Assembly (NCBI GenBank): GCA_946555455.1
Contig: CAMNSU010000004.1
Span: 1 to 64,000 of the forward strand
Origin: an uncultured Clostridia bacterium
GTDB lineage: Bacteria; Bacillota; Clostridia; RUG12999
Reading direction: 5' to 3'
DNA: 64,000 nucleotides
A program made the position numbers and the translations under genes. The notes beneath the pieces were generated by a model. It was not told where the DNA came from. It did no database searches and saw only the letters and a program-made list of their open reading frames with translations. Positions 358-58,856 of the stretch are shown one piece after another (positions within the stretch are counted from its first letter, which is position 1; every line of letters starts with the position of its first letter).

Positions 358-608
358 AAAGGCAACCGTTTTATAAATGAAATAAAGATGATTCTAAATG
401 GGAAAAAATGGAATGAAAATTTCCTTATGTCAGTAGAAAAAATGATTGAGGAACATGTATAGGCAGATATTAACGCACATTTGGCAAAGATAGAATGACA
501 GAACCATAAAATGATTTCAAATGGCTGCGTAGGCAAACAAAAGTTTAAGTCGAAGCGCAGCTTGGAATGGCAATGATAAGTGCAGGAATAAAAGGAGGCT
601 ATTACAAA
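358..608 (+). other. lyase leader region
   Basis: The A-rich leader has no convincing gene. A 24-codon open frame at 388-462 lacks a ribosome site. Positions 530-560 carry a degenerate copy of the TAGGCAAACAAAAG repeat also found at 5577, 48823 and (inverted) 51006. Confidence 0.4.
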
Positions 609-3419: not shown

Positions 3420-3526
3420 AGGGACAAATTTTTTTAGCAGTGCGGCGGATTTTGTAGAAATTCCGGCGGATTCTGCGAAATATGGCATAGCAACAAAATA
3501 TGTTAAAGTTTGAGGGAGGAATTGTT

Positions 3527-5359
3527 ATGAAAAAACTGGTATCGTTTGTGCTTATGATAGGGCTTTTGTGCAGCGTTGTGACGGCAGCCGCGGGCGAAGA
3601 AGTGCGGTGGGATTTGCAAAAACCTCCGGCAATAGAAGAGTATTATTTGGACACATATGGCGATTTTGAGTCAGAAGAACTCATCTTTTTCGGCGTGAGC
3701 GGCGGATTTCCAAAAGAAGACGCGAAGGCGGCGGCAGGGAAGATTGCACGGCTGCTTTCCGCTATTCCGTTTGAGCCGTCTGAAAAGCAAATAGAATTTC
3801 CGGGCGATGCAGGGATTCATCTCTATTTTCAACATGCAGCGGATATCGAACGAATAGCGCATGTGTTTATACTGCCGGAAGGGGTTCTCATGGCGGATAT
3901 AGCAAGAAAAGATTGGGTAAAACATAGCGCATTTATTGAAATGGATACACAAAAACTGGCAGCGGATATCCGAAACCTGATGAGCGATGCGATTCGTAAG
4001 GTAGAACAATATGAGGAGCAGCAGGAGCAGCAGAAAAAAGAGGAGCGCGCGCAATATGAAACAGAGCTTTCCTCTTTCCGAAAATTATATTCCGCAAAAG
4101 TGCCGAAGTTTACGTTCCAACGCATGGGAACAACACAGATGTCTCTTGAAGTGGGGATTTGTTCCTATCAGACGGTCGGCACCGGAACTCCTGTTTACGC
4201 CTACTATTTGGAACTGGGTGAGAATGGTACGGTTCGTGTGGCGGACAGCATAGATAAAAACAACACGGTTTCATTTTATGAACTGAAAATCTATCAGGAC
4301 AAGAGCAATCATAAGTATTATCTGAACCGTCAGAGTCAAAATATACTGAAATGCGTGGTGACGCTTGGCGTGTCCGCAGACGGCGCGTTAGAAACCATTG
4401 ACGCTACCATGTCACATTCTAACTACAAAGGGTCGGCGAAAAGAGGAGAATTTACCGAAAGCGGAACGCTGAAAACCTATGGCGATTTAAAATTGCCGGT
4501 TCCGGCGGCTACCCAAAAGACGGAAACACCGGAGCAAACAGAGACAAACAAACCGGATTCGGAACAGACGAAACCGGAGGATAAAACACCGACGGCGGAC
4601 GCGGAAACAAATAAAACCGATTCCGATACGCCGAATACAGATGACAAAAAACAGGAGCAGCAAGCGCCTGAGAACGGTGAAACGGAAAAGCAGCCGGAAA
4701 AACAGGAGGACGAGAAGCAGAACGGCGAGCAGCAGGAGGGCGAACCGCTGCCGACGGAACCCGAAAAACAACCGCCGACGCCTGCCGGAGAAATTACGGC
4801 GCAAACCTATCTGGAATGCGCCAACCGACTGAATCAATTGGGATTGCTGCGCGGCACGGGAAACGGATATGAACTGGAATCCGGATTCACACGCGCGCAG
4901 GGCGCGACAATGTTGGTTCGTCTGCTGGGCGAAGAAAAAACAGCTTTAGAACGCGTGCCGCAGGGGATTTTTACAGATGTTCCGGCGGACCATTGGGCGG
5001 CGCCGTATGTGGAATATTGCTATGAAAACGGTATCACCAAAGGAACCGGCGGCAATCAATATTCGCCGGAAACGCCAATGAACGGCGGGCAGTATATGAC
5101 GCTGGTTCTGCGCGCGCTGGGTTATACGGAAATAGAGCCGGAGAATGCCGCTGCCGCCGCCGTGGATTGTGCATTGCTGTCTCAGACAGAAGCAGAAAAG
5201 ATAGCGCAGATAGAACAGCTTGGAAGAGACAACATGGTTTATATTTCCTATCAGGCATTAACCGTACAGCGAGCGGACGGAAAAACGTTGATAGAAGCGT
5301 TGACAGAAAAACGCGCGGTTGAGACAGAAACCGCACGGCAGTTGGGGCTTTTGAAATAG
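3527..5359 (+). CDS. secreted SLH-domain protein with acidic linker
   Basis: A 610-residue surface protein. It has a signal peptide (MKKLVSFVLMIGLL..., cleavage near residue 24), an unrecognised region of about 300 residues containing a charged coiled-coil stretch (EQYEEQQEQQKKEERAQYE, around residues 165-185), a low-complexity Pro/Glu/Lys/Gln/Thr linker (about 325-420), and C-terminal SLH motifs (about 420-600, the third degenerate). SLH domains bind pyruvylated secondary wall polymer. The ATG at 3527 follows GAGGGAGGA and starts the signal peptide; an in-frame ATG at 3500 lacks a ribosome site. The gap to the lyase gene (107 bases) has no terminator, so the two may be co-transcribed. The function of the N-terminal region is unknown. 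Confidence 0.8.
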   Translation: MKKLVSFVLMIGLLCSVVTAAAGEEVRWDLQKPPAIEEYYLDTYGDFESEELIFFGVSGGFPKEDAKAAAGKIARLLSAIPFEPSEKQIEFPGDAGIHLYFQHAADIERIAHVFILPEGVLMADIARKDWVKHSAFIEMDTQKLAADIRNLMSDAIRKVEQYEEQQEQQKKEERAQYETELSSFRKLYSAKVPKFTFQRMGTTQMSLEVGICSYQTVGTGTPVYAYYLELGENGTVRVADSIDKNNTVSFYELKIYQDKSNHKYYLNRQSQNILKCVVTLGVSADGALETIDATMSHSNYKGSAKRGEFTESGTLKTYGDLKLPVPAATQKTETPEQTETNKPDSEQTKPEDKTPTADAETNKTDSDTPNTDDKKQEQQAPENGETEKQPEKQEDEKQNGEQQEGEPLPTEPEKQPPTPAGEITAQTYLECANRLNQLGLLRGTGNGYELESGFTRAQGATMLVRLLGEEKTALERVPQGIFTDVPADHWAAPYVEYCYENGITKGTGGNQYSPETPMNGGQYMTLVLRALGYTEIEPENAAAAAVDCALLSQTEAEKIAQIEQLGRDNMVYISYQALTVQRADGKTLIEALTEKRAVETETARQLGLLK

Positions 5360-5521
5360 TTGTGTCACGCGGACAGCGGATATTTTCTGTGATGTGCCTG
5401 TTTTAATGCTTCATGAAAGCGTATTGTACAAGAGTTGCAGAAAAAGAATCATTACGCTTCTTCTGGTGGAAGATATATGCAGAAACCATATGAAAATAAT
5501 TACTCCTTACCAATATAAAAT

Positions 5522-5558
5522 AAAACACGCGCCTGCAAGATAAGCAGGCGCGTGTTTT
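5522..5558. terminator. bidirectional rho-independent terminator
   Basis: A 15-bp perfect stem (5522-5536 with 5544-5558) around AAGATAA, with A residues on one side and T residues on the other. It serves the convergent genes ending at 5359 and 5694. The rest of 5360-5693 holds only a repeat at 5577-5608. Confidence 0.85.
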
Positions 5559-5576
5559 GTTTTCAGGTTTTTTCAA

Positions 5577-5608
5577 TAGGCAAACAAAAGTCGAATCCCT
5601 TATGCCTA
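5577..5608. repeat. TAGGCA...TGCCTA intergenic repeat, most complete copy
   Basis: A 32-base unit bounded by TAGGCA and TGCCTA with AAACAAAAGTCGAATCCC inside. Related copies lie at 530-560, 36830-36856, 48823-48850 and, inverted, about 50965-51010. All are intergenic. Confidence 0.6.
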
Positions 5609-5693
5609 GAGCGCTGGTCTACGAGATGTTTTCCAAAGAGACCGCAAATCTTTTGGAAAAATGTGCGCTTTTCTCCTAAAAAAGCATTTTTGT

Positions 5694-7475
5694 CTATTGC
5701 AGTTGCTGCACGATTCTTTGGAACACCGCCGCGGTTTGCGCTCTGGTGGCGTTTGCCGCCGGTGCAAAAGTGCCGTCCTCATTGCCCTGCAAAATGCCTT
5801 TATCCGCTGCCCAGACAGTCGCTTCTGCGGCATAATCGGAAATCGCGCTGCTATCCGTATAATTCAAATTGCCGTTTGCGGCGGTGTCATAGGCTTTGTA
5901 TTTGGCGTAGCGGTAGAGAATTGCCGCCATCTGTTCACGCGTGATGTTTTCCTCCGGCGCGAACAATTCATCGGAAACGCCTGCCACAATACCGTTTTGC
6001 CGCGCCCAATATACAGCGTTGCCGTACCAGCTTTGCGCGTCTACGTCCGCAAAGGGATATCCCAATATTTCATTGGATAAATCCGGCTGGTTTTCCAAGC
6101 GGTAGAGTACCGTCACGAACATTGCCCGTGTCACATCAGCCTCCGGCGCAAATTCCGTTTCGCTCACGCCCGTCATAAGACCGCAGTTACGAACGAATTC
6201 CACTGCCGACGCATACCATTCGCCGCTGTAAACGTCTGTGAAGATGCCGGTCGGTATACGGCTTCCGACTTCCGGAAGAGTGCGCAGAACAGGTCTGCCA
6301 AGCGATTCACTCATCACCCATGTGTCCGAGAAATCCCAACCGGCAAAGGTGGAAGGGTTGGAAAATGCCGCGTGGTCAATTGCAGCAGAATCAGCAGCAT
6401 CTGCATCAATAAAGGCTTCCGCGCGCAGCGAATAATATGATACCGTGCGTTCAAGGTTTATACCCGCAAGATAATAACAGCCGGTGACATTACCGGAGAT
6501 ATTCTTCCCAACGACTCCGCCGGGAGTCTGGTTGGTGGCAGTAACAGCGCCGGCATTATAACAATTGACAATCATTCCGGGAACTGTTTGGGTAAAGGAA
6601 CCGGGAGCATAGCTGCCGTTTTCTCCTGTAATTCCACCGCTCTTTATCCCATAGATAACGCTGCCGGTGTTATAGCAATTTTTCACGGTGCCCAGATTTC
6701 TCCCAAGGATACCGCCAACCACACTATGGACAGCACGGTGAGGATCGTATGGAACACCTTTAATAGTCCCTGTATTATAGCAACCGGTTATATTTCCGGT
6801 ATTGTAACCAGCAATGCCGCCACAATCATACATATTATCAATATCTCCCATATTGCAGCAGTCGCTTACGGTTCCGTTATTCTTGCCAACGATACCGCCG
6901 ATAGTATACCAACCGACAATTCCACTGAAATGATGACATGCTGTTATAGTTCCATCATTTATGCCAACAATGCCGCCGCCAGTGTTTTCGCAAAACAGTC
7001 CGCCCATATAATGACAGTCTATTACCATGCCCATATTTTGCGCAGCAATGCCGCCGGCAGAGGTGGTACCCCTGATATAACCATCTACATTGAGATGCTG
7101 AATCGTTCCTGTATTAACTCCAAATAGTCCTAGTCCTAAATAAGTACCGTCCGTCTGCTTCATATGGACTTCCTGTCTTATATAGAGTCCGGTGATTTTA
7201 TGTCCACCGCCGTCAAACGTGCCGGCGAAGGGTTTGTCCAGCGTGCCGATTGGCATCCATTGATGTTCTTCACTGCCGCCGAGGTCAATGTCCGCTGTGA
7301 GCGTGACAGTGGCGCCGCTGTAGTCGTTGCCTGCGTTCACGTTATCGCGGAAGGCTTCCAGTTCAGCAAGCGTGGAAATGATTAAATCCTCTGTTTCAAC
7401 GGCTGAAACAGCAGCCGAAACAAACAGGAGAACCAATGTAATAAGTGTGATGAACCCAAGTGGTTTCCGTTTCAT
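5694..7475 (-). CDS. GLUG-repeat surface protein with three C-terminal SLH domains
   Basis: A 593-residue secreted protein with a signal peptide (MKRKPLGFITLITLVLLFVSAAVSA), one module of GLUG-type repeats (about residues 28-405) and three SLH motifs (about 412-593). The repeats have the form GGIVGxNxGTVxxCYNTGxV and are expected to fold as a right-handed beta-solenoid. The module opens with the pattern ISTLAELEAFRDNVNAGN, which starts every module of the neighbouring 2116-residue protein. The ATG at 7473-7475 follows AAAGGA and starts a good signal peptide; an upstream TTG is less likely. The last 548 bases match the next gene except for one silent base, showing recent duplication or gene conversion. 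The ligand of the solenoid is unknown. Confidence 0.82.
   Translation of the reverse strand: MKRKPLGFITLITLVLLFVSAAVSAVETEDLIISTLAELEAFRDNVNAGNDYSGATVTLTADIDLGGSEEHQWMPIGTLDKPFAGTFDGGGHKITGLYIRQEVHMKQTDGTYLGLGLFGVNTGTIQHLNVDGYIRGTTSAGGIAAQNMGMVIDCHYMGGLFCENTGGGIVGINDGTITACHHFSGIVGWYTIGGIVGKNNGTVSDCCNMGDIDNMYDCGGIAGYNTGNITGCYNTGTIKGVPYDPHRAVHSVVGGILGRNLGTVKNCYNTGSVIYGIKSGGITGENGSYAPGSFTQTVPGMIVNCYNAGAVTATNQTPGGVVGKNISGNVTGCYYLAGINLERTVSYYSLRAEAFIDADAADSAAIDHAAFSNPSTFAGWDFSDTWVMSESLGRPVLRTLPEVGSRIPTGIFTDVYSGEWYASAVEFVRNCGLMTGVSETEFAPEADVTRAMFVTVLYRLENQPDLSNEILGYPFADVDAQSWYGNAVYWARQNGIVAGVSDELFAPEENITREQMAAILYRYAKYKAYDTAANGNLNYTDSSAISDYAAEATVWAADKGILQGNEDGTFAPAANATRAQTAAVFQRIVQQLQ
5695..6242 (-). 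repeat. 548-bp near-identical SLH cassette, copy 1
   Basis: Identical to 7620-8167 except at 6222 (G) against 8147 (A), a silent third-position change. It encodes the three SLH motifs and ends at the stop codon. Confidence 0.95.
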
Positions 7476-7537
7476 GGGCAAAATCCTTTCTTTGCAACTA
7501 TTTTATGCCAATTCTGCTAAGGTTTCGCTGTTTTTAT

Positions 7538-7584
7538 AGCTAAAGTTGGAACTCATGCCAATGGCATGAGTTCCAACTTTAGCT
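7538..7584. repeat. perfect 22-bp inverted repeat
   Basis: Arms at 7538-7559 and 7563-7584 are exactly complementary around AAT. It lies between the two SLH genes. There is no T tract on the side expected for a terminator of the minus-strand gene upstream, so its role (terminator, processing site or mobile remnant) is open. Confidence 0.7.
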
Positions 7585-7618
7585 TGCTTCAGTCAAATTT
7601 TCGTCCCAATAAATTCAT

Positions 7619-10600
7619 TTATTGCAGTTGCTGCACGATTCTTTGGAACACCGCCGCGGTTTGCGCTCTGGTGGCGTTTGCCGCCGGTGCAAAAGTGCCG
7701 TCCTCATTGCCCTGCAAAATGCCTTTATCCGCTGCCCAGACAGTCGCTTCTGCGGCATAATCGGAAATCGCGCTGCTATCCGTATAATTCAAATTGCCGT
7801 TTGCGGCGGTGTCATAGGCTTTGTATTTGGCGTAGCGGTAGAGAATTGCCGCCATCTGTTCACGCGTGATGTTTTCCTCCGGCGCGAACAATTCATCGGA
7901 AACGCCTGCCACAATACCGTTTTGCCGCGCCCAATATACAGCGTTGCCGTACCAGCTTTGCGCGTCTACGTCCGCAAAGGGATATCCCAATATTTCATTG
8001 GATAAATCCGGCTGGTTTTCCAAGCGGTAGAGTACCGTCACGAACATTGCCCGTGTCACATCAGCCTCCGGCGCAAATTCCGTTTCGCTCACGCCCGTCA
8101 TAAGACCGCAGTTACGAACGAATTCCACTGCCGACGCATACCATTCACCGCTGTAAACGTCTGTGAAAGAACCGCTTTGTGTCGGCGTGTTAGGCGTCGT
8201 GTCCGGTGAAGGCGGTGTTACAGGAGCGGGCGTTGCAACAGGAATGGGTACGACACCGCCGCTGCAGCTTCCTCCACGGTTTCCACCGCCTCCTCCTCCG
8301 CCACCGGCACCACCACCGCCTCCTCCGCCGAAACTACCGCCGCCGCCGGATATGGTGACGGATAGGGTTTGCGGCGCAGAGTCGTTGTGGTTGCTGTCGC
8401 CGAGAACTTTATAATATACCGTATAGGTCTTTGCGTCTGTTCCGGTCGGAATACTTGCGGAATAATCCCGTCCGTTCAAAGAATATTGCATAGTGCCGTC
8501 CACGGACTGTCCCGCCGTGATGAGCGCCTGCGGTTTGCCGTTATACGTGAGTCCTGTTTTGGCTGCTGGCGCTGTGTAGGACGGGTCAGCTTTGTTGACC
8601 GTCACTGTCACCGTCAACGTGAGAGATAGAGGATTTTTAGTCTGCGATTTTGCTGTTGCCTGTATCAGCAGCGAGTAATCACCTATCGCCGCAGTCGCCG
8701 GAACCGTCAGAGTATCGCCGCCTACTGCCGCGCCCAAAGTGTCGTTGCCGCTCGTAATGGTATAGACATACGCATATTGCGGCGCGTCTATGCCGCTGGA
8801 AGCTAAAAAGGCGGACAAATCCTGCGTTGCCGCTGTACCATAGACAGCGGTAACGGTTTTCCCTGAAATGGTGACGGAACTTTCCGGAATGGAACGCAAA
8901 ATCGGGCGACCGAGCAATTCGTCCATTCTCCAGGTATAATCAAATCCCCAGCCGCTAAAACTGCCTTTCTGCGCAAAAGCTTCCTTGTCGAGCACCCACG
9001 CCTGTCCGGCAACATCTGCACCATCCAGTCCGGCGTTGCCAATGCCGCCGATGGTAGAGGCGCCGGTGAGATAGTAGCAGTCTGTAACAACGCCGCGATT
9101 GTTTCCCACTATGCCGGCAGGGTTGCGGTTGGCGTCCCCAATGATGCCAACGCCGCCGCTGCCGGTAAATCCGGCTTTCCGGCGGACTGCGCCGATATTG
9201 TAGCAATTTTGAATGCTGCTGTTTTGCGTATCGTTGTATCCGGCAACGCCGCCAATGTTAGACAGTGCGCTAACCGCACCGGTTGTATAACAATCTTTGA
9301 TTTTTCCGGTGTTCCAGCCGACAATGCCGCCGGCATGGCTGCCGCCCTCGCAATTGATATCGCCGGTGTTGTAGCAGACAAGGATATTGCCATAGGAAGC
9401 GTTGCGACCGACAATGCCGCCGACCATGGCTCCGGAGGGGGCGTTCATTGCACCGGTATGATAGCAGCTTGATACCATTCGGTTATAGCCATTTTCGCCG
9501 ACAATACCGCCGACACAGCTTTCGCCTGTGATAGTGCCATCATGGTGACAGTCCGTAATGGTTCCTTCGCTGAATCCGACAATGCCGCCGACGCGTTCTG
9601 TGCCGGTTATATTGCCGGTTACAGAACAATAGGAAACAGAACCTTTTTCGTGCTGTCCGACAATGCCGCCCACATAAGTGCTGCCGGTGACGGTTCCTGC
9701 TACTTTGACATTTTGAATGGTTCCGGTACTATAGCCAAACAGCCCTTGATAGGCGCTATCCGGTTGGTCAATATAGAGTCCTGTGATTTTGTGTTCCCGA
9801 CCTTCAAATGTGCCTGCAAACGGCGCTTCTTTTGTGCCGATTGGCGTCCATTGTTTTGTACTGCTGCCGCCAAGGTCAATGTCCGCTGCAAGCGTAATCG
9901 TGAGGTTGTGATAGTCGTTGCCCGCGTTCACACTGTCTCGGAACGCTTCCAGTTCAGCGGCAGTAGAAATCGTGACATCTTTTAAACTATCCTCCGGAAT
10001 CGCGCGCAGGACAGGTCTGTCGATGGTATTGTCTATTTTCCAGACAGTTTCAAAATCCCAGCCGTCAAAAGTGAACGATTTTGCAAAGGCGGATTTCTCA
10101 ATTGCCTCCGCCTGTCCCAGAACGTCCTTGCGGTCCAGTCCGCCGGCAGAATTACCAAGACCGCCTGTAGCAGTGTTCACAAGATAATAGCAATGTGTAA
10201 CAATGCAGCTTGCACCGCTGCCGGTTCCGTTGGTGATGCCGGAACCGCCGGAAATAGTGCCGATATTATAGCAATTTGTCATTTCGCCCGGTATATTATA
10301 TCCTGTAATACCGCCGACACAGCCGATACCGGTGACGGCGCCGGTGTTGTAGCAATCGGTTACAATATTTAAATTAGCGCCTGCGATACCACCGATATAC
10401 GGTTCGCCGGTGACAGCACCAGTATTATAACAACATATTATCTTGCCGGTACTGGAACCTGTGATACCGCCTACGCTGGTTTCGCCGGTAATGGTACAAG
10501 TATTATAACAATTTTTGATTGTTCCATAAGAATTTTCTCCTGCAATACCGCCAACGTCAATACCGCCGGTAACAACTCCCGCCACGCCGAGGTTTTGAAT

Positions 10601-13600
10601 AGTTCCGGTGTTAAAACCGAACAACCCTTGATCGCCGCGTTTAGATTGATTGATATAGAGTCCTGAAATCTCGTGACCGCCGCCGTCAAACGTGCCGGCA
10701 AACGGTGCGTCCGCTGACCCAATCGGCGTCCACTGATGTTCTTCGCTGCCGCCCAGGTCAATGTCTGCTGCGAGTACGACGGTGACGTCGCTGTAGTCGT
10801 TGCCCGCGTTCACACTATCGCGGAGGGCTTCCAGCGCCGCAAGGTTTGTAATGGTATGCAGCATGGTTCCGCCGCCGCTGCCGTCTTCAGCATTCAAACA
10901 TAAAACAGGTCTGCCCAGCGACTCGTTCAGCGCCCAAACCGTTTCAAAATCCCAGTTCACAAAAGTAGACTGCTGTGCAAACGCCGTTTTAGGAACCGGT
11001 TCCGCCTGTCCTGCAACGTCATCACTGGCGGTTGTGCCGGAATGCCCGATGCCACCCGCCGCAGTGTCCGCAAGATAGTAGCAGTTGGAAAGATTCCCCA
11101 GCAGATTATTGCCAGCGATACCGCCGACAGCGGAGTTGCCGCGAATGCTGCCGACGCTGTAGCAATTGGTGACTGTGCCGGAACAGGTGCTGACAATGCC
11201 GCCGATATAGCTGCTGCCGCTGACCCTGCCGGTATTATAGCAATTGATAACGGTGCCGCCATTGGTGCGTACCACACCGCCGGTAGAGGAAGCGCCGATG
11301 CTGCCGGTGTTATAACAATTGGAGACGATAGCCTTTGTACCGTTGCTATCCACGATACCGCCCGCCCACTCATGACCGGAAATCGCACCGGTGTTGTAGC
11401 AGCCGGAGATGGAACCGTCATTGTTTCCGGCAATACCGCCAATAAACATGTTTCCGCCAACGGTGCCGTCATTATGGCAATTTGTGATACTGCCTTCATT
11501 CCAGCCCACAATGCCGCCGACTTGTTCGGAGGAGCTGTCGGGTGCAACAGCGCCGCTGTGAGAACAATTTATAATGGAACCGAGATTATATCCGGTAATG
11601 CCGCCAATGGTATCTGCACGCCGACCGGCATTGCCGACAACGCCGTCATGATGACAGTTTAAAATACTGCCCTCATTTTTTCCGACAATGCCGCCGGTAT
11701 AGTCCATACTGCGGACGTCGCCCGATACGCTGAGATTTTGAATGGTTCCGCTGCTGCGGCCGAACAATCCTTGAAATCCGTTCCCAGGAACATCGTTGAT
11801 ACAAAGTCCTGAAATCTTGTGATCGCCGCCGTTAAAAGTACCGGCGAACGGTTTGTCCAGCGTGCCGATTGGCGTCCATTGATTTTCATAAGTAATAATG
11901 CCGTAATCGTCATTGACGCGACCGCCTAAATCAATGTCCGCTGCAAGCATGACAGTGGTGCCGCTATAGTCGTTGCCCGCGTTTACGCTATCCCGAAACG
12001 CTTGCAGTTCGGCAAGCGTGGAAATCACGAGAGAAGTAATTTCCGTTTTGCCGGCGCTTTCCGGAATTTCGCGCAGAATTGGTCTGCTAAGGGTGTTGTC
12101 TATTTTCCAGACATTCTCAAAATCCCAGTTCACAAATGCAGATTGCCGCGCAAATGCAGTATTGTCAATTGCCTCTGCCTGTCCGGCAACATCTGCGCCG
12201 TCCAGTCCGCCCGAAGCAGTATCCGTCAGATAATAGCAATTTGTGACTGTATAGGTGATTTCACCGTCCACGCCGTTTGTGATACCGGAACCGCCGGAAA
12301 CCGCGCCGATATTATAGCAATTTGTGATGACGCTGCGTGCGCCGCCCGCAGAGCCGCTGCCATCGTTAACACTGACAGCCCGCCCGACAATGCCGCCGGC
12401 AAATTCCTTGCCGGAAACCGCGCCGGTATTATAGCAATCGGCAATATTGCTGTCATTGCCGGAACCGCCCGCGATACCGCCGATAAGTTCGTTGCCGGAG
12501 ACGGAACCAGTATTATAACAGCGAAGGATTTTACAGTGGTCGCTGATGCCGAACTGCGTGTCGGCATGACCGCCTGCGATACCGCCGACAATCATTCCGC
12601 CTTTTACAGTACAATGATTGCAGCAGTTTTGGAGCCAGCCGAAAGTATTGTTGTTGCCGACAATGCCGCCGACATAAGCGCCGCCGGTAACGGAACCGTC
12701 CACACAAAGGTTTTGAATGGTTCCGGCGTTATGCGCGAATAACCCTTGATAATCGTCATTCGGTCGGTTGATATGTAATCCTGTGATTTTGTGACCGGCA
12801 CCGTCAAAAATGCCGCCGAACGAAATATCTTTTGTGCCAATCGGCGTCCATTGGTTTTGTTCGCTGCCGCCGAGGTCAATATCCGCCGCGAGCGTGACAT
12901 AGAGGTCATAGGATTTTTCTCCGGCGTTCACACTGTCCCGAAAGGCTTCCAGTTCGGCAAGCGTGGAAACAGTTATTCTTCGATAGCTGTCCTCCGCAAG
13001 TGCGCGCAAAACCGGTCTGCCAAGGATGACGTCCATGTCCCAAACGGTTTCAAAATCCCAGCCCTCAAAGGTGGGCGAATGCTCAAATAAATTTTTTTCA
13101 ATGGCGGTTGTCTGTCCCGACGTGTCTGCGCCGTCAAAACCGCCTGTGGCAGTGCCCGCCAGATAATAGCAGCTTGTGATGGTGAATGGCTTCGCTTCGC
13201 CCGCTCCGATACAGTCGCCGATGATACCGGAGCCGCCGGAGACCGCGCCGATATTATAGCAATTCGATAATACGCCGGGCGCAAGCATACGACCTGCAAT
13301 CCCGCCGCTGCTGTCGCTGCCGGAGACCGCGCCGGTGTTATAACAATTTGTAATATTACTATGTTCACCGGAACCGCCAGCGATACCGGCAACCATGGTT
13401 TCACCGGAAATTGCGCCGGTATTATAACATTTTGTTATTTCGCAGCCACTGGTGCCGGAATCGCGGTCGCCGTTTGCGCCTGCGATACCGCCGACCATGC
13501 TCACGCCGGTGACGGCGCAGTGGTTATAACAATTTTTGATTGCTCCATAAGCAGTGTCGCCAACAATACCGCTGACACGCATACTGCCGGTAACAGAACC

Positions 13601-13969
13601 GTCCACGCCAAGATTTTGAATGGTTCCGGTATTGCTGCCAAACAGCCCTTGATAGGAGCTGTCCGGTTGGTTGATATACAAACCAGTGATGGTATGTCCA
13701 CCGCCGTCAAACGTGCCGCCAAAAGGCATGTATTTTGTACCAATCGGCGTCCACTGATGTTCTGCGCTGCCGCCGAGGTCAATGTCTGCTGTGAGCGTGA
13801 CGGTGGCGCCGCTGTAGTCGTTGCCCGCATTCACGCTATCACGAAAGGCTTCCAATTCGGCAGCAGTGGAAATGGTGAAATCCTCCGCTGCGGCGACAGG
13901 AAGGGCAACCGGCAGAGAAGAGAAAATCAGCGCGGCTGCCATGATAAAACTGAGTGTTTTTCGTTTCAT
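7619..13969 (-). CDS. giant GLUG-repeat SLH surface protein (2116 residues)
   Basis: Secreted wall-bound protein. It has a signal peptide (MKRKTLSFIMAAALIFSSLPVALPVAAA), then five homologous modules starting near residues 33, 334, 650, 1040 and 1334. Each opens with a STxAELEAFRDSVNAGxDY-type cap followed by DIDLGG, WTPIG, FDGGGH and many GLUG repeats (GGIAGxNxGxIxxCYNTGAV). After these come an Ig-like/MBG-like segment (about 1700-1870), a glycine-rich run (about 1870-1905), a Pro/Thr linker and three SLH motifs (about 1936-2116). AAGGGGGT precedes the ATG at 13967-13969. GLUG solenoids are common in adhesins and surface proteins of gut Firmicutes; adhesion is an inference. Module duplication and the shared SLH cassette suggest recombination shapes this locus. 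Confidence 0.85.
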   Translation of the reverse strand: MKRKTLSFIMAAALIFSSLPVALPVAAAEDFTISTAAELEAFRDSVNAGNDYSGATVTLTADIDLGGSAEHQWTPIGTKYMPFGGTFDGGGHTITGLYINQPDSSYQGLFGSNTGTIQNLGVDGSVTGSMRVSGIVGDTAYGAIKNCYNHCAVTGVSMVGGIAGANGDRDSGTSGCEITKCYNTGAISGETMVAGIAGGSGEHSNITNCYNTGAVSGSDSSGGIAGRMLAPGVLSNCYNIGAVSGGSGIIGDCIGAGEAKPFTITSCYYLAGTATGGFDGADTSGQTTAIEKNLFEHSPTFEGWDFETVWDMDVILGRPVLRALAEDSYRRITVSTLAELEAFRDSVNAGEKSYDLYVTLAADIDLGGSEQNQWTPIGTKDISFGGIFDGAGHKITGLHINRPNDDYQGLFAHNAGTIQNLCVDGSVTGGAYVGGIVGNNNTFGWLQNCCNHCTVKGGMIVGGIAGGHADTQFGISDHCKILRCYNTGSVSGNELIGGIAGGSGNDSNIADCYNTGAVSGKEFAGGIVGRAVSVNDGSGSAGGARSVITNCYNIGAVSGGSGITNGVDGEITYTVTNCYYLTDTASGGLDGADVAGQAEAIDNTAFARQSAFVNWDFENVWKIDNTLSRPILREIPESAGKTEITSLVISTLAELQAFRDSVNAGNDYSGTTVMLAADIDLGGRVNDDYGIITYENQWTPIGTLDKPFAGTFNGGDHKISGLCINDVPGNGFQGLFGRSSGTIQNLSVSGDVRSMDYTGGIVGKNEGSILNCHHDGVVGNAGRRADTIGGITGYNLGSIINCSHSGAVAPDSSSEQVGGIVGWNEGSITNCHNDGTVGGNMFIGGIAGNNDGSISGCYNTGAISGHEWAGGIVDSNGTKAIVSNCYNTGSIGASSTGGVVRTNGGTVINCYNTGRVSGSSYIGGIVSTCSGTVTNCYSVGSIRGNSAVGGIAGNNLLGNLSNCYYLADTAAGGIGHSGTTASDDVAGQAEPVPKTAFAQQSTFVNWDFETVWALNESLGRPVLCLNAEDGSGGGTMLHTITNLAALEALRDSVNAGNDYSDVTVVLAADIDLGGSEEHQWTPIGSADAPFAGTFDGGGHEISGLYINQSKRGDQGLFGFNTGTIQNLGVAGVVTGGIDVGGIAGENSYGTIKNCYNTCTITGETSVGGITGSSTGKIICCYNTGAVTGEPYIGGIAGANLNIVTDCYNTGAVTGIGCVGGITGYNIPGEMTNCYNIGTISGGSGITNGTGSGASCIVTHCYYLVNTATGGLGNSAGGLDRKDVLGQAEAIEKSAFAKSFTFDGWDFETVWKIDNTIDRPVLRAIPEDSLKDVTISTAAELEAFRDSVNAGNDYHNLTITLAADIDLGGSSTKQWTPIGTKEAPFAGTFEGREHKITGLYIDQPDSAYQGLFGYSTGTIQNVKVAGTVTGSTYVGGIVGQHEKGSVSYCSVTGNITGTERVGGIVGFSEGTITDCHHDGTITGESCVGGIVGENGYNRMVSSCYHTGAMNAPSGAMVGGIVGRNASYGNILVCYNTGDINCEGGSHAGGIVGWNTGKIKDCYTTGAVSALSNIGGVAGYNDTQNSSIQNCYNIGAVRRKAGFTGSGGVGIIGDANRNPAGIVGNNRGVVTDCYYLTGASTIGGIGNAGLDGADVAGQAWVLDKEAFAQKGSFSGWGFDYTWRMDELLGRPILRSIPESSVTISGKTVTAVYGTAATQDLSAFLASSGIDAPQYAYVYTITSGNDTLGAAVGGDTLTVPATAAIGDYSLLIQATAKSQTKNPLSLTLTVTVTVNKADPSYTAPAAKTGLTYNGKPQALITAGQSVDGTMQYSLNGRDYSASIPTGTDAKTYTVYYKVLGDSNHNDSAPQTLSVTISGGGGSFGGGGGGGAGGGGGGGGNRGGSCSGGVVPIPVATPAPVTPPSPDTTPNTPTQSGSFTDVYSGEWYASAVEFVRNCGLMTGVSETEFAPEADVTRAMFVTVLYRLENQPDLSNEILGYPFADVDAQSWYGNAVYWARQNGIVAGVSDELFAPEENITREQMAAILYRYAKYKAYDTAANGNLNYTDSSAISDYAAEATVWAADKGILQGNEDGTFAPAANATRAQTAAVFQRIVQQLQ
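7620..8167 (-). repeat. 548-bp near-identical SLH cassette, copy 2
   Basis: Partner of 5695-6242 in direct orientation, 1925 bases apart. One difference in 548 positions was found by line-by-line comparison. Confidence 0.95.
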
Positions 13970-52876: not shown

Positions 52877-52980
52877 AGCGGAGCCGCGCAGAAACAAAAA
52901 ATGCTTTGTATATCGTGCATGTCACGGCGTAAAACGGCATGAGATATAGTGCTGCGCCCGTCTGTGAATGTAGAACCGTA

Positions 52981-53015
52981 AAAGTCTTTTGCCATCACGG
53001 CAAAAGACTTTTTTT
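52981..53015 (+). terminator. terminator after pgsA
   Basis: A 13-bp stem (52981-52993 with 52999-53011), loop ATCAC, seven T. The sequence from here to 53186 shows no gene. Confidence 0.85.
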
Positions 53016-53186
53016 GTCGGCTGCTGCCGTGCTTGCGCCGAAGGGCGCTTTGGCATAAAGGGAGACTTTTGTTATAGTGGATTGTTGTAAAATGACGAAT
53101 AATGACAGATGTTGGGGAAAAGACGTGCTAAAAAAATACAGAAAAGTGTGGAATTTTTCTAAAATGTAAAAAAATATGGAAATCCA

Positions 53187-53215
53187 TTGCAATCCTTCAT
53201 TTTTTTTGCTATAAT
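53187..53215 (+). promoter_or_regulatory. promoter of the structured RNA
   Basis: TTGCAA (53187-53192), 17 bases, TATAAT (53210-53215). Predicted start near 53222. Confidence 0.7.
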
Positions 53216-53221
53216 AGAATT

Positions 53222-53780
53222 ACACCAGGAGGAGTCTGCCCTAAAACAACTCAAATGTAGTTTGATTTGCGGCAGGGCGGCATCATAACTTCTGGTTCTG
53301 TCCCCGAATGGGAACGGACGATCAAATTGCATGTCCTCTGATTTCAGGAATACATACGCCTTAGCGGGCGAGTCGGAGGAGACGTGCGCCGCATGCATAA
53401 AAGGACGTCTTTATCAATCCCAGTGGGACCCGGTCAAAAAATCCCCGAAAGGCGCAATAACATAATATATAGAAAAAACGGGGTATCAATGGAGTTTGAG
53501 ATCAATTTCGGCAACGGAATGGATCCTGTAAGACACAGGGGCATTGCCCCAGCCAGGAGACGACCGGTCTGGCGGAAGGTAATGACTTCGGCTTTCAGCT
53601 TAAAGCACCCAGGCAGAGGTCTTGTTACATATGAATACCATAGGCGAAATCTGAAAGCTGCCGGAGCATTCCATATTTGCTGCCGGCAGCTGGGTTTCGG
53701 GAGACGCGCGCCGGATGGGGCGTGAAACCTCACAAAATCATGAATCGGGAATAGATGATTTTTGACAGGAACAAAGCCGG
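53222..53780 (+). ncRNA. long, highly structured RNA or leader of unknown class
   Basis: About 560 bases without a credible gene but dense in hairpins: CTGCCCT/AGGGCGG-type pairing around 53237-53280, AGACGT/ACGTCT (near 53381-53411), CCCAGTGGG, CCTGT/ACAGG and GGGGCATTGCCCC (53524-53557), GCCAG/CTGGC, GAAG/CTTC, GCTTT/AAAGC and AGCTGCCGG/CCGGCAGCT (near 53657-53694) inside CGAAA/TTTCG. It precedes the 1671-residue surface protein gene with no obvious terminator, so it is either its 5' leader or a separate RNA. Size is in the range of OLE and ROOL RNAs, but I cannot assign it to any known class. Confidence 0.6.
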
Positions 53781-53840
53781 AAATCGGCTTATAACATAGT
53801 AGGGGGAATACGATATTTTAGTGGGAAGGGTGGAAATAGC

Positions 53841-56800
53841 ATGAAGAGAACACGCAAACGCGGCGTTGTTTTCATTTTGGCATTGGTGATGACGCTTAGC
53901 GTTATCACGCCGGCGGCAGCGCAGACGCCTGAAAATGATGTGGACGCGCATTGGGCAGCGACTTATATTTATCAAGCGGTCAGGGGTGGATTCGCGGATA
54001 TGCATGGCGGGCTGTTTGAACCGGACCGCGCTGTCACGCGCGCAGAATTTGCGCATATGATGACGGCAATGCTGGGGCTGTCGCGTGCAGGAGACAGCAC
54101 GTTTACGGATGTGGAAAAAGATAATCCGTATTATAAAGACATTCAAACGGCTGTTGCGGCAGGCATTTTGAAAGGGAAAGAAACCAGCAAATTCTATCCG
54201 GAGGGGGAAATCACCCGTCAGGAAGCGGGCGCGATTATCAGCCGTGTGGTTCCCAGCGCGGATATGCTAGATCAATCCTGTTTGGAGACTTTTCATGATG
54301 TGGATAAAATAGGGTCTTGGGCGCGGGAGGCGCTGGCAATCTGTAAAAACAAAGGATATATCATTGGTAATGAATTGGGATATATGAATCCGCAGGGACG
54401 GTTGACCCGTGCCGAAGCGGTTAAAATTTTGTGCGTCATACAGGACAGCGAGGACATTGTTCGTGAAGATGTGACGCTCAGCGGCAAAGACCCTGCATTG
54501 CAGAACAAAATCGTAGTGGGAAATGTGAACATTTCCTCAGCGGCAAAAGGCAATGTTTTGCTGCGCAACAATATCATTTTCGGCAGTGTAACGGCATCGG
54601 GCGGAGCCGGTTTGCGCGTGCAGGATTCGTGTCTGTCCTACCAGCTTATCATTCGCGGCACGCCTATTTCCTTTGAAGTGACGGCGACGGGACGCACGGA
54701 AATTGCATTGGTACGGCGCTATGAACTGCGCAGTGTGGTCAATCAGGCATTGGCTGTCGGCTTTAGCGGCGTAGGACGCGTTGAAAACAACTTTGCATCG
54801 ACCGCCGGTTCCGGCGGCGGTGGCGGTGGCGGCGGTGCAAGCAGACCGGATATACAGAACCAGCCCAATGCACAGCGTGTCACGCAGATGATTGAGGCGT
54901 TGCCGGAACCGGAAGCAGTTGAAAAGGCAACGGTAAATACCTATAAAGACAGTATTTGGGAAGCAAAAAAACGTTTAGACCAACTGACAAAAACGGAACT
55001 TGGCAGCGTTGATGGAGAACATCAGAAAAAATTGCAGTCATTGATAGATAAAGTGGGACAATATCTGGTGGTGATTCCGCAGGTGGAATCACCGGAAATC
55101 ATTTTGTCCGCAGGAGAAGCGGAATTTGTGTGGCGGTGTGATACAGTGCCGCTTTTGCAGCCGGAAACAACAAAACTGGTCTATGAATTGAAAGCGGACG
55201 CAGTAGGGCAGGAAGAAATTTCTGATATTCGCCGGATTATCGGTGCGGAAAAAGAAGTGGACAGCGCCTATGAAATCTATGTGCAGCGCGAAATCCACGC
55301 TGCCAAAATCCAAACGGAAATCCTCAGTGCAAACGGGCTGCCCTTGCAGCTTTCCATTCGGGAGGACCTTGCGAACAAAGCAGGGCTGGAGGTAGTATAT
55401 ATGGCGGCGGACGGGTCTTGCCGTCCACAAAATGCCATTGTCGTACGCCGCGGCGGACAGTATTTTCTGGAATTTCAAGCGACGGAAGAAACGGAGGAAC
55501 CTGCCGCAGGCAGAACTGTTTCCGGACAGTATGTTGTCACCTATGACAAACAGAGCGCTGCGCCGTCAGGGCGGTTTGAAACGCCGCAGCAGCTAAAGGT
55601 ACAAAAGGACAGCGAAAAACATGTGATTGTGTCTTTCCGCCCGGTGGAAGGCGCACAAAAATATTTGATATACATAACAAACACCCAGACAGCCGAAACA
55701 AGCTATTTTGAAACAGCACAGACAACACTGGATATCACAGACCGTCTCGGAGAAGGCGGCAGAACCTATCAGGTGCGAGTGGCGGCGAAAGCGCTTGGCA
55801 ATATGGCGACAAGCGCCTTGTCGGAAGCGGTTTCCGTTCAGACTGTTTGGGGCAAGCTTGCTGCGCCGCAGCAGTTGGATAGCATGAAACAAGACGGGAG
55901 CGTAACGGTATCGTTTGAAGCAGATCCGGCGGGACAATTGGTTCAAATCAGTTTGCTGCAAGCGGATACCGGTGCATTTATCGGGTCTATGACAACAGCA
56001 AAAGAGCAGGCGGATATCAGTGCGCTGCTCCTTTTAGCGCCGCCGGAAATACGCCGGTTCAAGGTATGCGCTGTGTCGCTTGGCACAGGATATTTTGATA
56101 CCTCCGACGCGGCAGATTTGCTGCTGGATCTTGACCAGTTCCGTTTGCGCTACAGCGCAGGAGAAAACGGCGCGGTGCTGGGAGAGACAGACCAGCTTGT
56201 GGCGCGCGGTGAAGATGGCGGAGAAGTGACGGCAAGGGGTAACACAGGATATCATTTTTTGCGTTGGAGCGATGGCGTGGAAACGCCCGTCCGGCAGGAA
56301 AAAAATGTGGAAAACGACGTTAATGTCAGCGCACAGTTTGAAATCAATACCTATCATCTGTCCTATACGGCAGCAGGGCAAGGAACGGTTGAAGGAACGA
56401 CCGACCAATATGTGCAGCATGGCGGAGACGGAACCGGCGTCAAGGCTGTGGCGGAAGAAGGATATGAATTTACGGGCTGGAGTGACGGTGTGCTGAGTGC
56501 GTCCCGTACAGATTTAGACGTAACAGGTGACATTATCGTGACCGCGCAGTTCCAGCGGAAACAATATACACTGTCCTATGCCGCAGGGCCAAACGGCAGC
56601 GTGCTCGGCGATGTGGCGCAGTCTGTGTATCACGGCGAAAACGGCACAGAAGTGGAAGCTGTCCCCAATGACACCTATTTGTGGCTGCGTTGGAGCGATG
56701 GTGTGATTGAACAAAAACGGCAGGAAAAAGACGTCCGGCAAGATATGGCAGTGACGGCGTTGTTTGCATCAGAAGTGGTCACTGTGCAGTATCTGGCAAC

Positions 56801-58856
56801 GGAATATGGTTCTGTCAGCGGTATTACCACGCAGCGTTTGCAGCCGGGAGAAACCACCATGACAGTGACGGCAGTACCGGATGAAGGCGGACGGTTTGTG
56901 CGCTGGAGCGATGGCGTGACAACGCCGGAGCGCAGCGATGTAGATGTGCGCAGCAACATGACGATAACCGCGGAGTTTGAGGTAGGATCGCATACAGTGA
57001 CATATATCGCGGGCGAACATGGGTCTATTTCCGGCGAAACAGTGCAGCGTGTGGAATATGGCGAAAATTCCAAACAGGTTGTTGCGGTGCCGGATGCACA
57101 CTATCATTTTGTGCAGTGGAGCGATGGATTTGAACTTCCGCAGCGAATAGACTATGAAGTGAAAGAAAACCGTACATGGACAGCACAATTTGCGCCAAAC
57201 ACCAATGCAGTGATTATCACCGGAGGAACCGGAAGCGCGACCTATGCCTATGGTGACACGGTAACAATAGAATTTACGCCGGTGGACGGACAGAGATTTA
57301 AGAATTGGAAAGTGACCAGCGGAAGTGTTACGCTGGCGGATGCAGCGGCGGAGAAAACAACATTTATTATGCCGGACAGCATTGTACGAATCCAGGCGGA
57401 ATTTGAATTCCGTTTGGGTACCTGCGGTCATGACGGCGACACAGTGGGTGCATTTTTCGAGGGAACCGGAACAGCGGAAGACCCGTTCAAAGTGACAACG
57501 CCGCAGCAGTTTATCCATATCAAACAGCATATCGGCGAAGGAAAATGTTATGTGCAGGAGAACGATTTGGATTTTGACGGCGTTGCATTTTCTCCGATTG
57601 GCGTAACCACGCCGTTCAAAGGTGTTTATGACGGCGGCGGAAACGTGGTAAAGAATGTAAAATATCAGGATAGTTCCAATACCATGGCGGCATTGTTCCT
57701 GCTCATGGATCCCGCCGGTGAAATTAAAAATGTCGTGACAGACGCTTCCTGTGCATTTGAGGCGCGTCTCTATGCGGCGGGCATCATTGCCAACGCAGGG
57801 AGCGGATTGGTGCAAAACTGCGTGAATAAAGCGGAGGTTACAGCAACTCAGGCTGCCGGCGGTATTACTGCCACAACAGCGGAGAAAAGCACAAAAGAAG
57901 TCGTGCGAAACTGCCGTAATGAAGGTACTGTCATTGCTACAGGCGAGAAACTCGGTAATTCCGGCGGTATTGTCGGCGTGAATGGCGCGGTAGTAGTTGC
58001 TTGCTATAACAGTGGGACTGTCACAGCGGCTAAATCCGGCGGCGGTATTGCGGGAGAAAACAAGGGCAGTGTGCAGCAAAATTATAATGCCGGAACGGTC
58101 TATTCCACCATTAATGCAGGCGGTGTGGTTGGCTTTAATACCGGTGCCGGTGTTGTGGATACATGCTATAATGCAGGATTGATTTATGGCGACACGGACA
58201 GCGGTGGGCTGGCAGGATATAACGCTGCGATGATGCGCAATATTTATAACGTGGCGCAGATTGGCGGCTGGAAAAAGACAACCGGCTACATTGGCGGTGT
58301 GATTGGCTATAACAATAAAGGGTCTGTTGTTTCGAGTTACAATATTGGAAAAGTGACAGGCACTACAAAAGCAAATAACGGCGGAATTATCGGTTATAAT
58401 AGACAATCCGGTACTTCCATTCAAAATAACTACTATCTAGAGGGGACTTCGGCAGGCGCAATCAGCGGAAAAGATCAGGTAGGCAAAGCAGAAATGCGCA
58501 GTCTGGATCAGATGATTATTCCATCGTTTGCGGCTTTACTAAACAACAGCGGCGCGGTTTGGGTGCTGGACGGAACGTTGTCCAATCCGACAGGATTTCA
58601 GTTCCCGCAGCTTAGTTTGCTGCCGCATATCGGATTTTTCCCGACGTTTGATGTGAGAATGGCAGTGAATCTGCCGCAGCCGGCGGACGAGGAACCGGCG
58701 CCGCCGGAGGAAGAGGTGCCGCCCCTTACGCCGGAGGAAACTTTACAGCCGGAGGAAGCGGAAGAACCTACGCCAAGTCCGCAGGTGACACCGGAGGAAT
58801 CACCGGCAGACGCGCCGGAAGAGACGGCACAGCCGGAAGAAACACCGGAAGCATAA
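53841..58856 (+). CDS. giant SLH surface protein with InlB-like and GLUG repeats (1671 residues)
   Basis: Signal peptide (MKRTRKRGVVFILALVMTLSVITPAAA), three SLH motifs at the N-terminus (about residues 30-210), a small beta region, a glycine run (about 324-333), a region with helical parts, two fibronectin-III-like domains (about 577-765), five divergent InlB B-type repeats of about 70 residues each containing RWSDGV or QWSDGF (about 769-1120) plus one weaker copy, a GLUG solenoid (about 1192-1530) and a Pro/Glu-rich tail. It is wall-bound through the SLH end, opposite to the other SLH proteins here. AAGGGTGG precedes the ATG. Adhesion or substrate binding is likely but unproven. A very long structured RNA precedes it. 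Confidence 0.85.
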   Translation: MKRTRKRGVVFILALVMTLSVITPAAAQTPENDVDAHWAATYIYQAVRGGFADMHGGLFEPDRAVTRAEFAHMMTAMLGLSRAGDSTFTDVEKDNPYYKDIQTAVAAGILKGKETSKFYPEGEITRQEAGAIISRVVPSADMLDQSCLETFHDVDKIGSWAREALAICKNKGYIIGNELGYMNPQGRLTRAEAVKILCVIQDSEDIVREDVTLSGKDPALQNKIVVGNVNISSAAKGNVLLRNNIIFGSVTASGGAGLRVQDSCLSYQLIIRGTPISFEVTATGRTEIALVRRYELRSVVNQALAVGFSGVGRVENNFASTAGSGGGGGGGGASRPDIQNQPNAQRVTQMIEALPEPEAVEKATVNTYKDSIWEAKKRLDQLTKTELGSVDGEHQKKLQSLIDKVGQYLVVIPQVESPEIILSAGEAEFVWRCDTVPLLQPETTKLVYELKADAVGQEEISDIRRIIGAEKEVDSAYEIYVQREIHAAKIQTEILSANGLPLQLSIREDLANKAGLEVVYMAADGSCRPQNAIVVRRGGQYFLEFQATEETEEPAAGRTVSGQYVVTYDKQSAAPSGRFETPQQLKVQKDSEKHVIVSFRPVEGAQKYLIYITNTQTAETSYFETAQTTLDITDRLGEGGRTYQVRVAAKALGNMATSALSEAVSVQTVWGKLAAPQQLDSMKQDGSVTVSFEADPAGQLVQISLLQADTGAFIGSMTTAKEQADISALLLLAPPEIRRFKVCAVSLGTGYFDTSDAADLLLDLDQFRLRYSAGENGAVLGETDQLVARGEDGGEVTARGNTGYHFLRWSDGVETPVRQEKNVENDVNVSAQFEINTYHLSYTAAGQGTVEGTTDQYVQHGGDGTGVKAVAEEGYEFTGWSDGVLSASRTDLDVTGDIIVTAQFQRKQYTLSYAAGPNGSVLGDVAQSVYHGENGTEVEAVPNDTYLWLRWSDGVIEQKRQEKDVRQDMAVTALFASEVVTVQYLATEYGSVSGITTQRLQPGETTMTVTAVPDEGGRFVRWSDGVTTPERSDVDVRSNMTITAEFEVGSHTVTYIAGEHGSISGETVQRVEYGENSKQVVAVPDAHYHFVQWSDGFELPQRIDYEVKENRTWTAQFAPNTNAVIITGGTGSATYAYGDTVTIEFTPVDGQRFKNWKVTSGSVTLADAAAEKTTFIMPDSIVRIQAEFEFRLGTCGHDGDTVGAFFEGTGTAEDPFKVTTPQQFIHIKQHIGEGKCYVQENDLDFDGVAFSPIGVTTPFKGVYDGGGNVVKNVKYQDSSNTMAALFLLMDPAGEIKNVVTDASCAFEARLYAAGIIANAGSGLVQNCVNKAEVTATQAAGGITATTAEKSTKEVVRNCRNEGTVIATGEKLGNSGGIVGVNGAVVVACYNSGTVTAAKSGGGIAGENKGSVQQNYNAGTVYSTINAGGVVGFNTGAGVVDTCYNAGLIYGDTDSGGLAGYNAAMMRNIYNVAQIGGWKKTTGYIGGVIGYNNKGSVVSSYNIGKVTGTTKANNGGIIGYNRQSGTSIQNNYYLEGTSAGAISGKDQVGKAEMRSLDQMIIPSFAALLNNSGAVWVLDGTLSNPTGFQFPQLSLLPHIGFFPTFDVRMAVNLPQPADEEPAPPEEEVPPLTPEETLQPEEAEEPTPSPQVTPEESPADAPEETAQPEETPEA

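Follow-up and report, generated by a model that had tools for sequence, protein, structure and literature searches.

A very long putative leader RNA upstream of a giant S-layer homology protein gene in gut Clostridia

Long untranslated leaders precede the S-layer genes of Lactobacillus, Thermus and brevibacilli, and are thought to affect the stability or translation of the mRNA. Large structured RNAs exist in bacteria as well: OLE, for example, measures ~600 bases. A system that is closer in context to the present one is the SLH motif, a riboswitch candidate that is found upstream of S-layer homology (SLH) genes (Stav et al., 2019, PMC6429828). About 80 examples of this motif have been described in Synergistaceae, Clostridia and Negativicutes (PMC6429828).

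The element considered here lies in a window of 64,000 nucleotides (the whole stretch of DNA that was analysed; contig CAMNSU010000004.1, positions 1 to 64,000), which is part of the 3.1 Mb draft genome of an uncultured Clostridia bacterium. Like the SLH motif, it is located upstream of a gene with SLH domains (PF00395). It had been picked out in a sequence-only reading as either a new structured RNA or a very long leader. The features of the locus are the following:

52979-53016, plus strand: intrinsic terminator at the end of the lgt-pgsA genes, AAAAGTCTTTTGCC-ATCAC-GGCAAAAGACTTTT (direct reading and fold, -19.9 kcal/mol)
53128-53186, plus strand: conserved region of A/T tracts preceding the promoter, similar to an UP element or possibly an operator (putative role)
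53187-53215, plus strand: promoter with extended -10, TTGCAA-17-TATAAT, with TG before the -10
53222-53840, plus strand: whole leader RNA, ~619 bases from the predicted transcription start to the start codon; full-length homology in two relatives only
53222-53410, plus strand: 5' structured domain, with hairpins and a long helix within 53272-53402 (model R2, pair-keeping test)
53235-53242, plus strand: UCUGCCCU, complementary to the Shine-Dalgarno region and also able to pair locally in the 5' domain; invariant in all three sequences (partition function)
53478-53643, plus strand: core domain, a closed multi-branch structure and the most conserved part (model R1)
53538-53550, plus strand: GGGGCATTGCCCC hairpin, invariant in all three sequences (direct reading)
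53606-53610, plus strand: CACCC, which is (nearly) unpaired when the core is folded locally and can pair with Shine-Dalgarno GGGUG; invariant (partition function)
53640-53712, plus strand: long hairpin AGCTGCCGG/CCGGCAGCT nested in CGAAA/TTTCG (fold, -31.9 kcal/mol)
53823-53840, plus strand: ribosome-binding region that precedes the ATG, with GGGAAGGGTGGAAAT unchanged in the three sequences
53841-58856, plus strand: gene for a surface protein of 1671 residues that carries SLH domains and B repeats of the InlB type (PF00395, 1.4e-22; PF18998, 7.6e-56)

The transcription unit

Relatives of the leader were found in only two further genomes, both of them Clostridia metagenome assemblies of the same genus (records JAAWTG010000038.1 and CATIYX010000291.1): in G001, the distant relative in the following, it is 82% identical, and in G002, the near relative, 97%. 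The upstream neighbours are, according to Pfam, lgt and a CDP-alcohol phosphatidyltransferase gene (pgsA-like), and the terminator stem that follows them is present in both relatives and hence in three of three genomes. All three share the gene order lgt-pgsA-terminator-promoter-RNA-SLH gene, and the length of the leader stays within 619-624 bases. Orthologues of the SLH gene adjoin the RNA in the near (97%) and the distant relative (90%), where the gene is interrupted by the contig end.

The promoter differs at two of 35 positions in the distant relative and at none in the near one (0/35), compared with 35% in the spacer, which argues that it is real and bears out the good promoter of the sequence-only reading; transcription would start at ~53222. 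Likewise, only 4 of 80 bases differ in the distant relative between 53140 and 53219, versus 35% over the whole upstream spacer. The A/T tracts at 53140-53186 of the window, which include TGGAAATCCA, are near-invariant between species and might serve as an UP element or operator.

Towards the gene, no intrinsic terminator was found between the RNA and the SLH gene by direct reading and by eye, in agreement with the earlier reading, and direct reading gave no second promoter candidate at the RNA's end. That reading had also let the RNA end 60-100 bases before the gene, which does not hold: a stretch at ~53720-53760, within the last 130 bases, is as divergent as the spacer, but beyond it the sequence is conserved again, through the ribosome site and up to the ATG at 53841.

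Constraint, coding potential and fold

Between the window and the distant relative, 6.1% of the bases differ in the 166-base core (10/165), 24% in the 5' domain, 22% in the hairpin (53644-53712), 30% in the tail (53713-53800) and 35% in the upstream spacer, while third codon positions of the neighbouring genes differ at 23-24%. The 5' domain and the hairpin therefore evolve at about the synonymous-site rate, and strong constraint falls on the core, the promoter and the ribosome site. Within the core, 53558-53627 form a run of 70 consecutive bases that is invariant in all three sequences.

This conservation is not codon-like. Pfam has no match for the longest sense frame, none of six frames shows a third-position excess strong enough for coding, and the five of nine changes at third positions in one antisense frame are too few to weigh. 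The covariance models of Rfam 15 gave no match to the leader at gathering score and only noise at E up to 10. OLE, ROOL, GOLLD, raiA, T-box, RNase P, tmRNA and the other Rfam families were accordingly dropped as identities of the leader; a misread RNase P was also rejected because the genome has its own RNase P RNA elsewhere. No tmRNA lies within the window. The two findings that the sequence-only reading had set against itself, a known Rfam class and codon-like changes, were thus both looked for and neither occurred, and its statements that the region holds no credible gene and no marks of OLE, ROOL, GOLLD, RNase P or tmRNA stand.

Compared with dinucleotide shuffles, the folding energy of the whole leader reaches z scores of -2.4 in the window and of -2.2 and -4.2 in the relatives (200 shuffles; -3.1 with 20 shuffles), and one of six control stretches of 619 bases from the window also scores -2.6. 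Since folding thus only modestly beats shuffles and a control does as well, the case for a structured RNA rests on conservation, as energy by itself would not suffice. In the pair-keeping test, one sequence is folded alone, and the pairs that survive in another are counted against randomly placed substitutions. The 5' domain keeps 50 of 59 pairs, with 43.2 expected (p 0.004), and 51 of 60 in the reverse direction, with 41.6 expected (p<0.0002). In the core, none of the ten differing bases breaks a predicted pair, and 53/53 are kept versus 49.6 expected (p 0.003; 0.013 in the other direction). The hairpin at 53640-53712, with z ~ -3.6 in 120-base windows, keeps 20 of 21 pairs versus 16.3 expected (p 0.007; reverse 0.008), including one double change from U-A to C-G. 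In the middle (p 0.6 and 0.9) and the tail (p 0.4 and 0.09), pairs are not kept above random, and the quiet core inflates the result of this test for the whole leader. There are few double compensatory changes (6 versus 3.0 expected, p 0.07), which points to avoidance of broken pairs more than to covariation. Of the 181 pairs in the RNAalifold structure, nine carry a double change, but this structure is itself predicted from those same sequences. A fold in three domains (5' domain, core and hairpin 53640-53712) is therefore supported, not proven, because few changes are truly compensatory. The hairpins singled out in the sequence-only reading (GGGGCATTGCCCC, and AGCTGCCGG...CCGGCAGCT within CGAAA/TTTCG) are present, and its count of eight or more is matched by prediction, although comparative support is limited to the three domains.

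Two alternatives to a conserved RNA can be weighed against these data. A short protein encoded by the core, on one strand or the other, is highly improbable. The sense frame MEFEINFGNG... runs for 50 codons without a stop in each of the three genomes, and one antisense frame is open as well, but the changes in the sense frame are mostly non-synonymous and are followed by a frameshift in the distant relative; moreover, not one change has accumulated over 70 bases although neighbouring third positions differ at 23%, and the missing Pfam match adds to this. Selection might also act on no more than the promoter region and scattered protein-binding sites in the DNA, with an incidental fold; this would agree with the modest folding energy and with the middle and tail parts that lack pair conservation. 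However, three separate domains retain more pairs than expected at random, in both directions, and the invariant 70-base stretch far exceeds usual operator sites, which makes this explanation very unlikely as well. The element is real, selected, non-coding and at least partly structured, and is unmatched in Rfam.

Distribution and the SLH gene family

In its own genome, the leader is present as a single copy, and it was not found in the six other genomes of the family. Members of the genus were the only true matches in blastn searches of 60 relatives and 391 genomes of the class, in searches with the core model R1 (391 class, 398 phylum and 41 near genomes) and in those with the 5'-domain model R2 (391 class genomes). 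An exact 18-mer scan of 84,980 species genomes yielded no true matches beyond these two relatives, and the plasmids and phages searched contained no match to the leader. One weak match was dropped because it lies inside a radical-SAM/lysine-2,3-aminomutase-like reading frame (L004), another because it is antisense to a transporter-like gene (L053); the remaining 18-mer matches were inspected and dropped. Since only part of the class and of the phylum was sampled, and diverged copies escape an exact pattern, a wider distribution is possible, and the claim is limited by its comparative basis of three sequences from one genus, two of them nearly identical.

The SLH genes of the host genome deserve mention in their own right. 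Around the best 150 SLH matches, at least 97 reading frames with SLH domains were found on many contigs, including 567-13969 and 53841-58856 of the window. Many of them follow one another head to tail, less than 30 bases apart; the surface proteins of this genome are thus very greatly expanded in number. Directly before the SLH gene at L124:6825 lies a cobalamin riboswitch (RF00174, 101 bits; L124:6482-6675, contig C1), which suggests that this gene may be under B12-dependent control. A tetrahydrofolate riboswitch (RF01831; L122:7414-7520) occurs near another SLH gene. In addition, several intergenic copies of a dispersed palindromic repeat, GGTATAATAGTCACAAAGTGACTATTATAC and variants, precede SLH genes (before position 6364 of L098 and position 4312 of L127). 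The leader itself was found before just one of the roughly hundred SLH surface-protein genes in the genome; a similar leader was seen in 0 of 96 upstream regions of the others.

Possible roles and comparable systems

The reading we favour, with a probability of roughly 0.62, is that the 619 bases form the 5' leader of the SLH-protein mRNA, transcribed from their own promoter and tuning surface-protein output. It follows from the lack of a terminator, from conservation that runs through the ribosome site and from the same gene always being downstream. As in cis-acting leaders in general, the element has its own promoter upstream, no terminator before the gene and a conserved secondary structure, in that three domains keep pairs above random while two segments do not and double changes are few. 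Such a very long, cis-acting leader probably acts on the translation or the stability of the surface-protein mRNA. Transcription would begin at ~53222 from the conserved promoter, and the RNA would fold into at least three domains, as the comparative support suggests. It would remain joined to the SLH gene, because no terminator separates the two, and would most likely set the amount of surface protein via mRNA lifetime and ribosome access to the Shine-Dalgarno sequence GGGAAGGGUGG. A plausible, if unproven, switch would be that the invariant 5' UCUGCCCU or the core CACCC hides GGGUGG, and that other folds free it. The invariant core would suggest specific recognition by a protein or a ligand.

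In all three sequences, the Shine-Dalgarno bases are predicted to pair with conserved leader segments, which speaks for a leader; the partner differs among the three, which speaks against it. By partition function, the partner is CACCC in the window (pairing probability 0.99), a mixture of leader segments in the near relative (CACCC at ~0.24), and the 5' UCUGCCCU in place of CACCC in the distant one (~0.97), and these full-length folds of 680 bases are unreliable. The duplex of UCUGCCCU with the Shine-Dalgarno region has -12.1 kcal/mol, and 21% of shuffled leaders do as well; the complementarity is thus not beyond chance, and masking was discarded as a proven mechanism. Within the leader explanation, the leader may nonetheless mask the ribosome site. 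A further point against the leader is that none of the other SLH genes examined in the genome has a similar one. Leader control of SLH genes as such probably occurs in this genome, since another SLH gene follows a cobalamin riboswitch.

A processed or free RNA in place of a leader is possible. In its strict form, a structured RNA that stands on its own, similar in spirit to OLE, ROOL or raiA, would act in trans or as a ribonucleoprotein, and the SLH gene would be read through or use an unseen promoter. The length and modular fold would suit such an RNA, as would the position of its most constrained part (53478-53643) 200 bases from the gene and the spacer-like divergence between hairpin and ribosome site (~53720-53760). 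We consider it unlikely, however, because no intrinsic terminator follows the RNA, no second promoter candidate is seen at its end, conservation picks up again into the ribosome site, the same gene is always downstream, and known free-standing large RNAs do not match. Both halves of the sequence-only reading thus fit the data, but the evidence favours a leader over a free-standing ornate RNA, given its own promoter, the lack of a terminator, the constant length, the conservation into the Shine-Dalgarno sequence and the same downstream gene in three genomes. A special case of the leader would be a riboswitch, in which the invariant core is a small-molecule aptamer and translation is toggled by an expression platform close to the ribosome site. 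The 166-base core with its 70 consecutive invariant bases and closed multi-branch fold would be in line with this, as would the published riboswitch candidate before SLH genes (PMC6429828). It is nevertheless doubtful, as restriction to one genus and the lack of a second genomic copy are unusual for aptamers and no known aptamer matches. As a tentative extension of the preferred leader reading, the element might be a new class of ~620-base, multi-domain regulatory RNA, so far of one genus of gut Clostridia, whose core binds a specific partner and which switches one giant SLH protein by opening and closing the ribosome site. Should the leader act as a switch, it would be one of the rare very large RNAs that serve a single surface protein, and would offer a way to ask how such bacteria select their surface display. 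The element also shows that lineage-restricted structured RNAs of such size escape Rfam.

Among known systems, T-box RNAs share with this element that they are long leaders, and its 3' AGGGUGG resembles the start of the T-box sequence. However, no family match appears at E up to 10, AGGGUGG lies at the ribosome site, and the downstream gene is neither an aminoacyl-tRNA synthetase nor an amino-acid gene. The leaders of S-layer genes are alike in preceding an abundant surface protein as long 5' leaders, but they are typically shorter and simpler, compared with ~619 bases, an invariant 70-base stretch and supported domains here. OLE, ROOL, GOLLD and raiA are of the same size class and have multi-domain folds in Bacillota, whereas the leader has no covariance-model match, no terminator and a narrow distribution, and is fixed before one gene; beyond size, nothing links it to OLE, ROOL or GOLLD (PMC12286853). 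The nearest known system, and the closest in context, is the SLH motif, to which the leader is likened by description: in both, a structured RNA lies directly upstream of S-layer homology genes in Clostridia and would be cis-acting by position. Compared on description and context only, the two differ in that the SLH motif occurs in Synergistaceae, Clostridia and Negativicutes, whereas the leader was found in one genus only.
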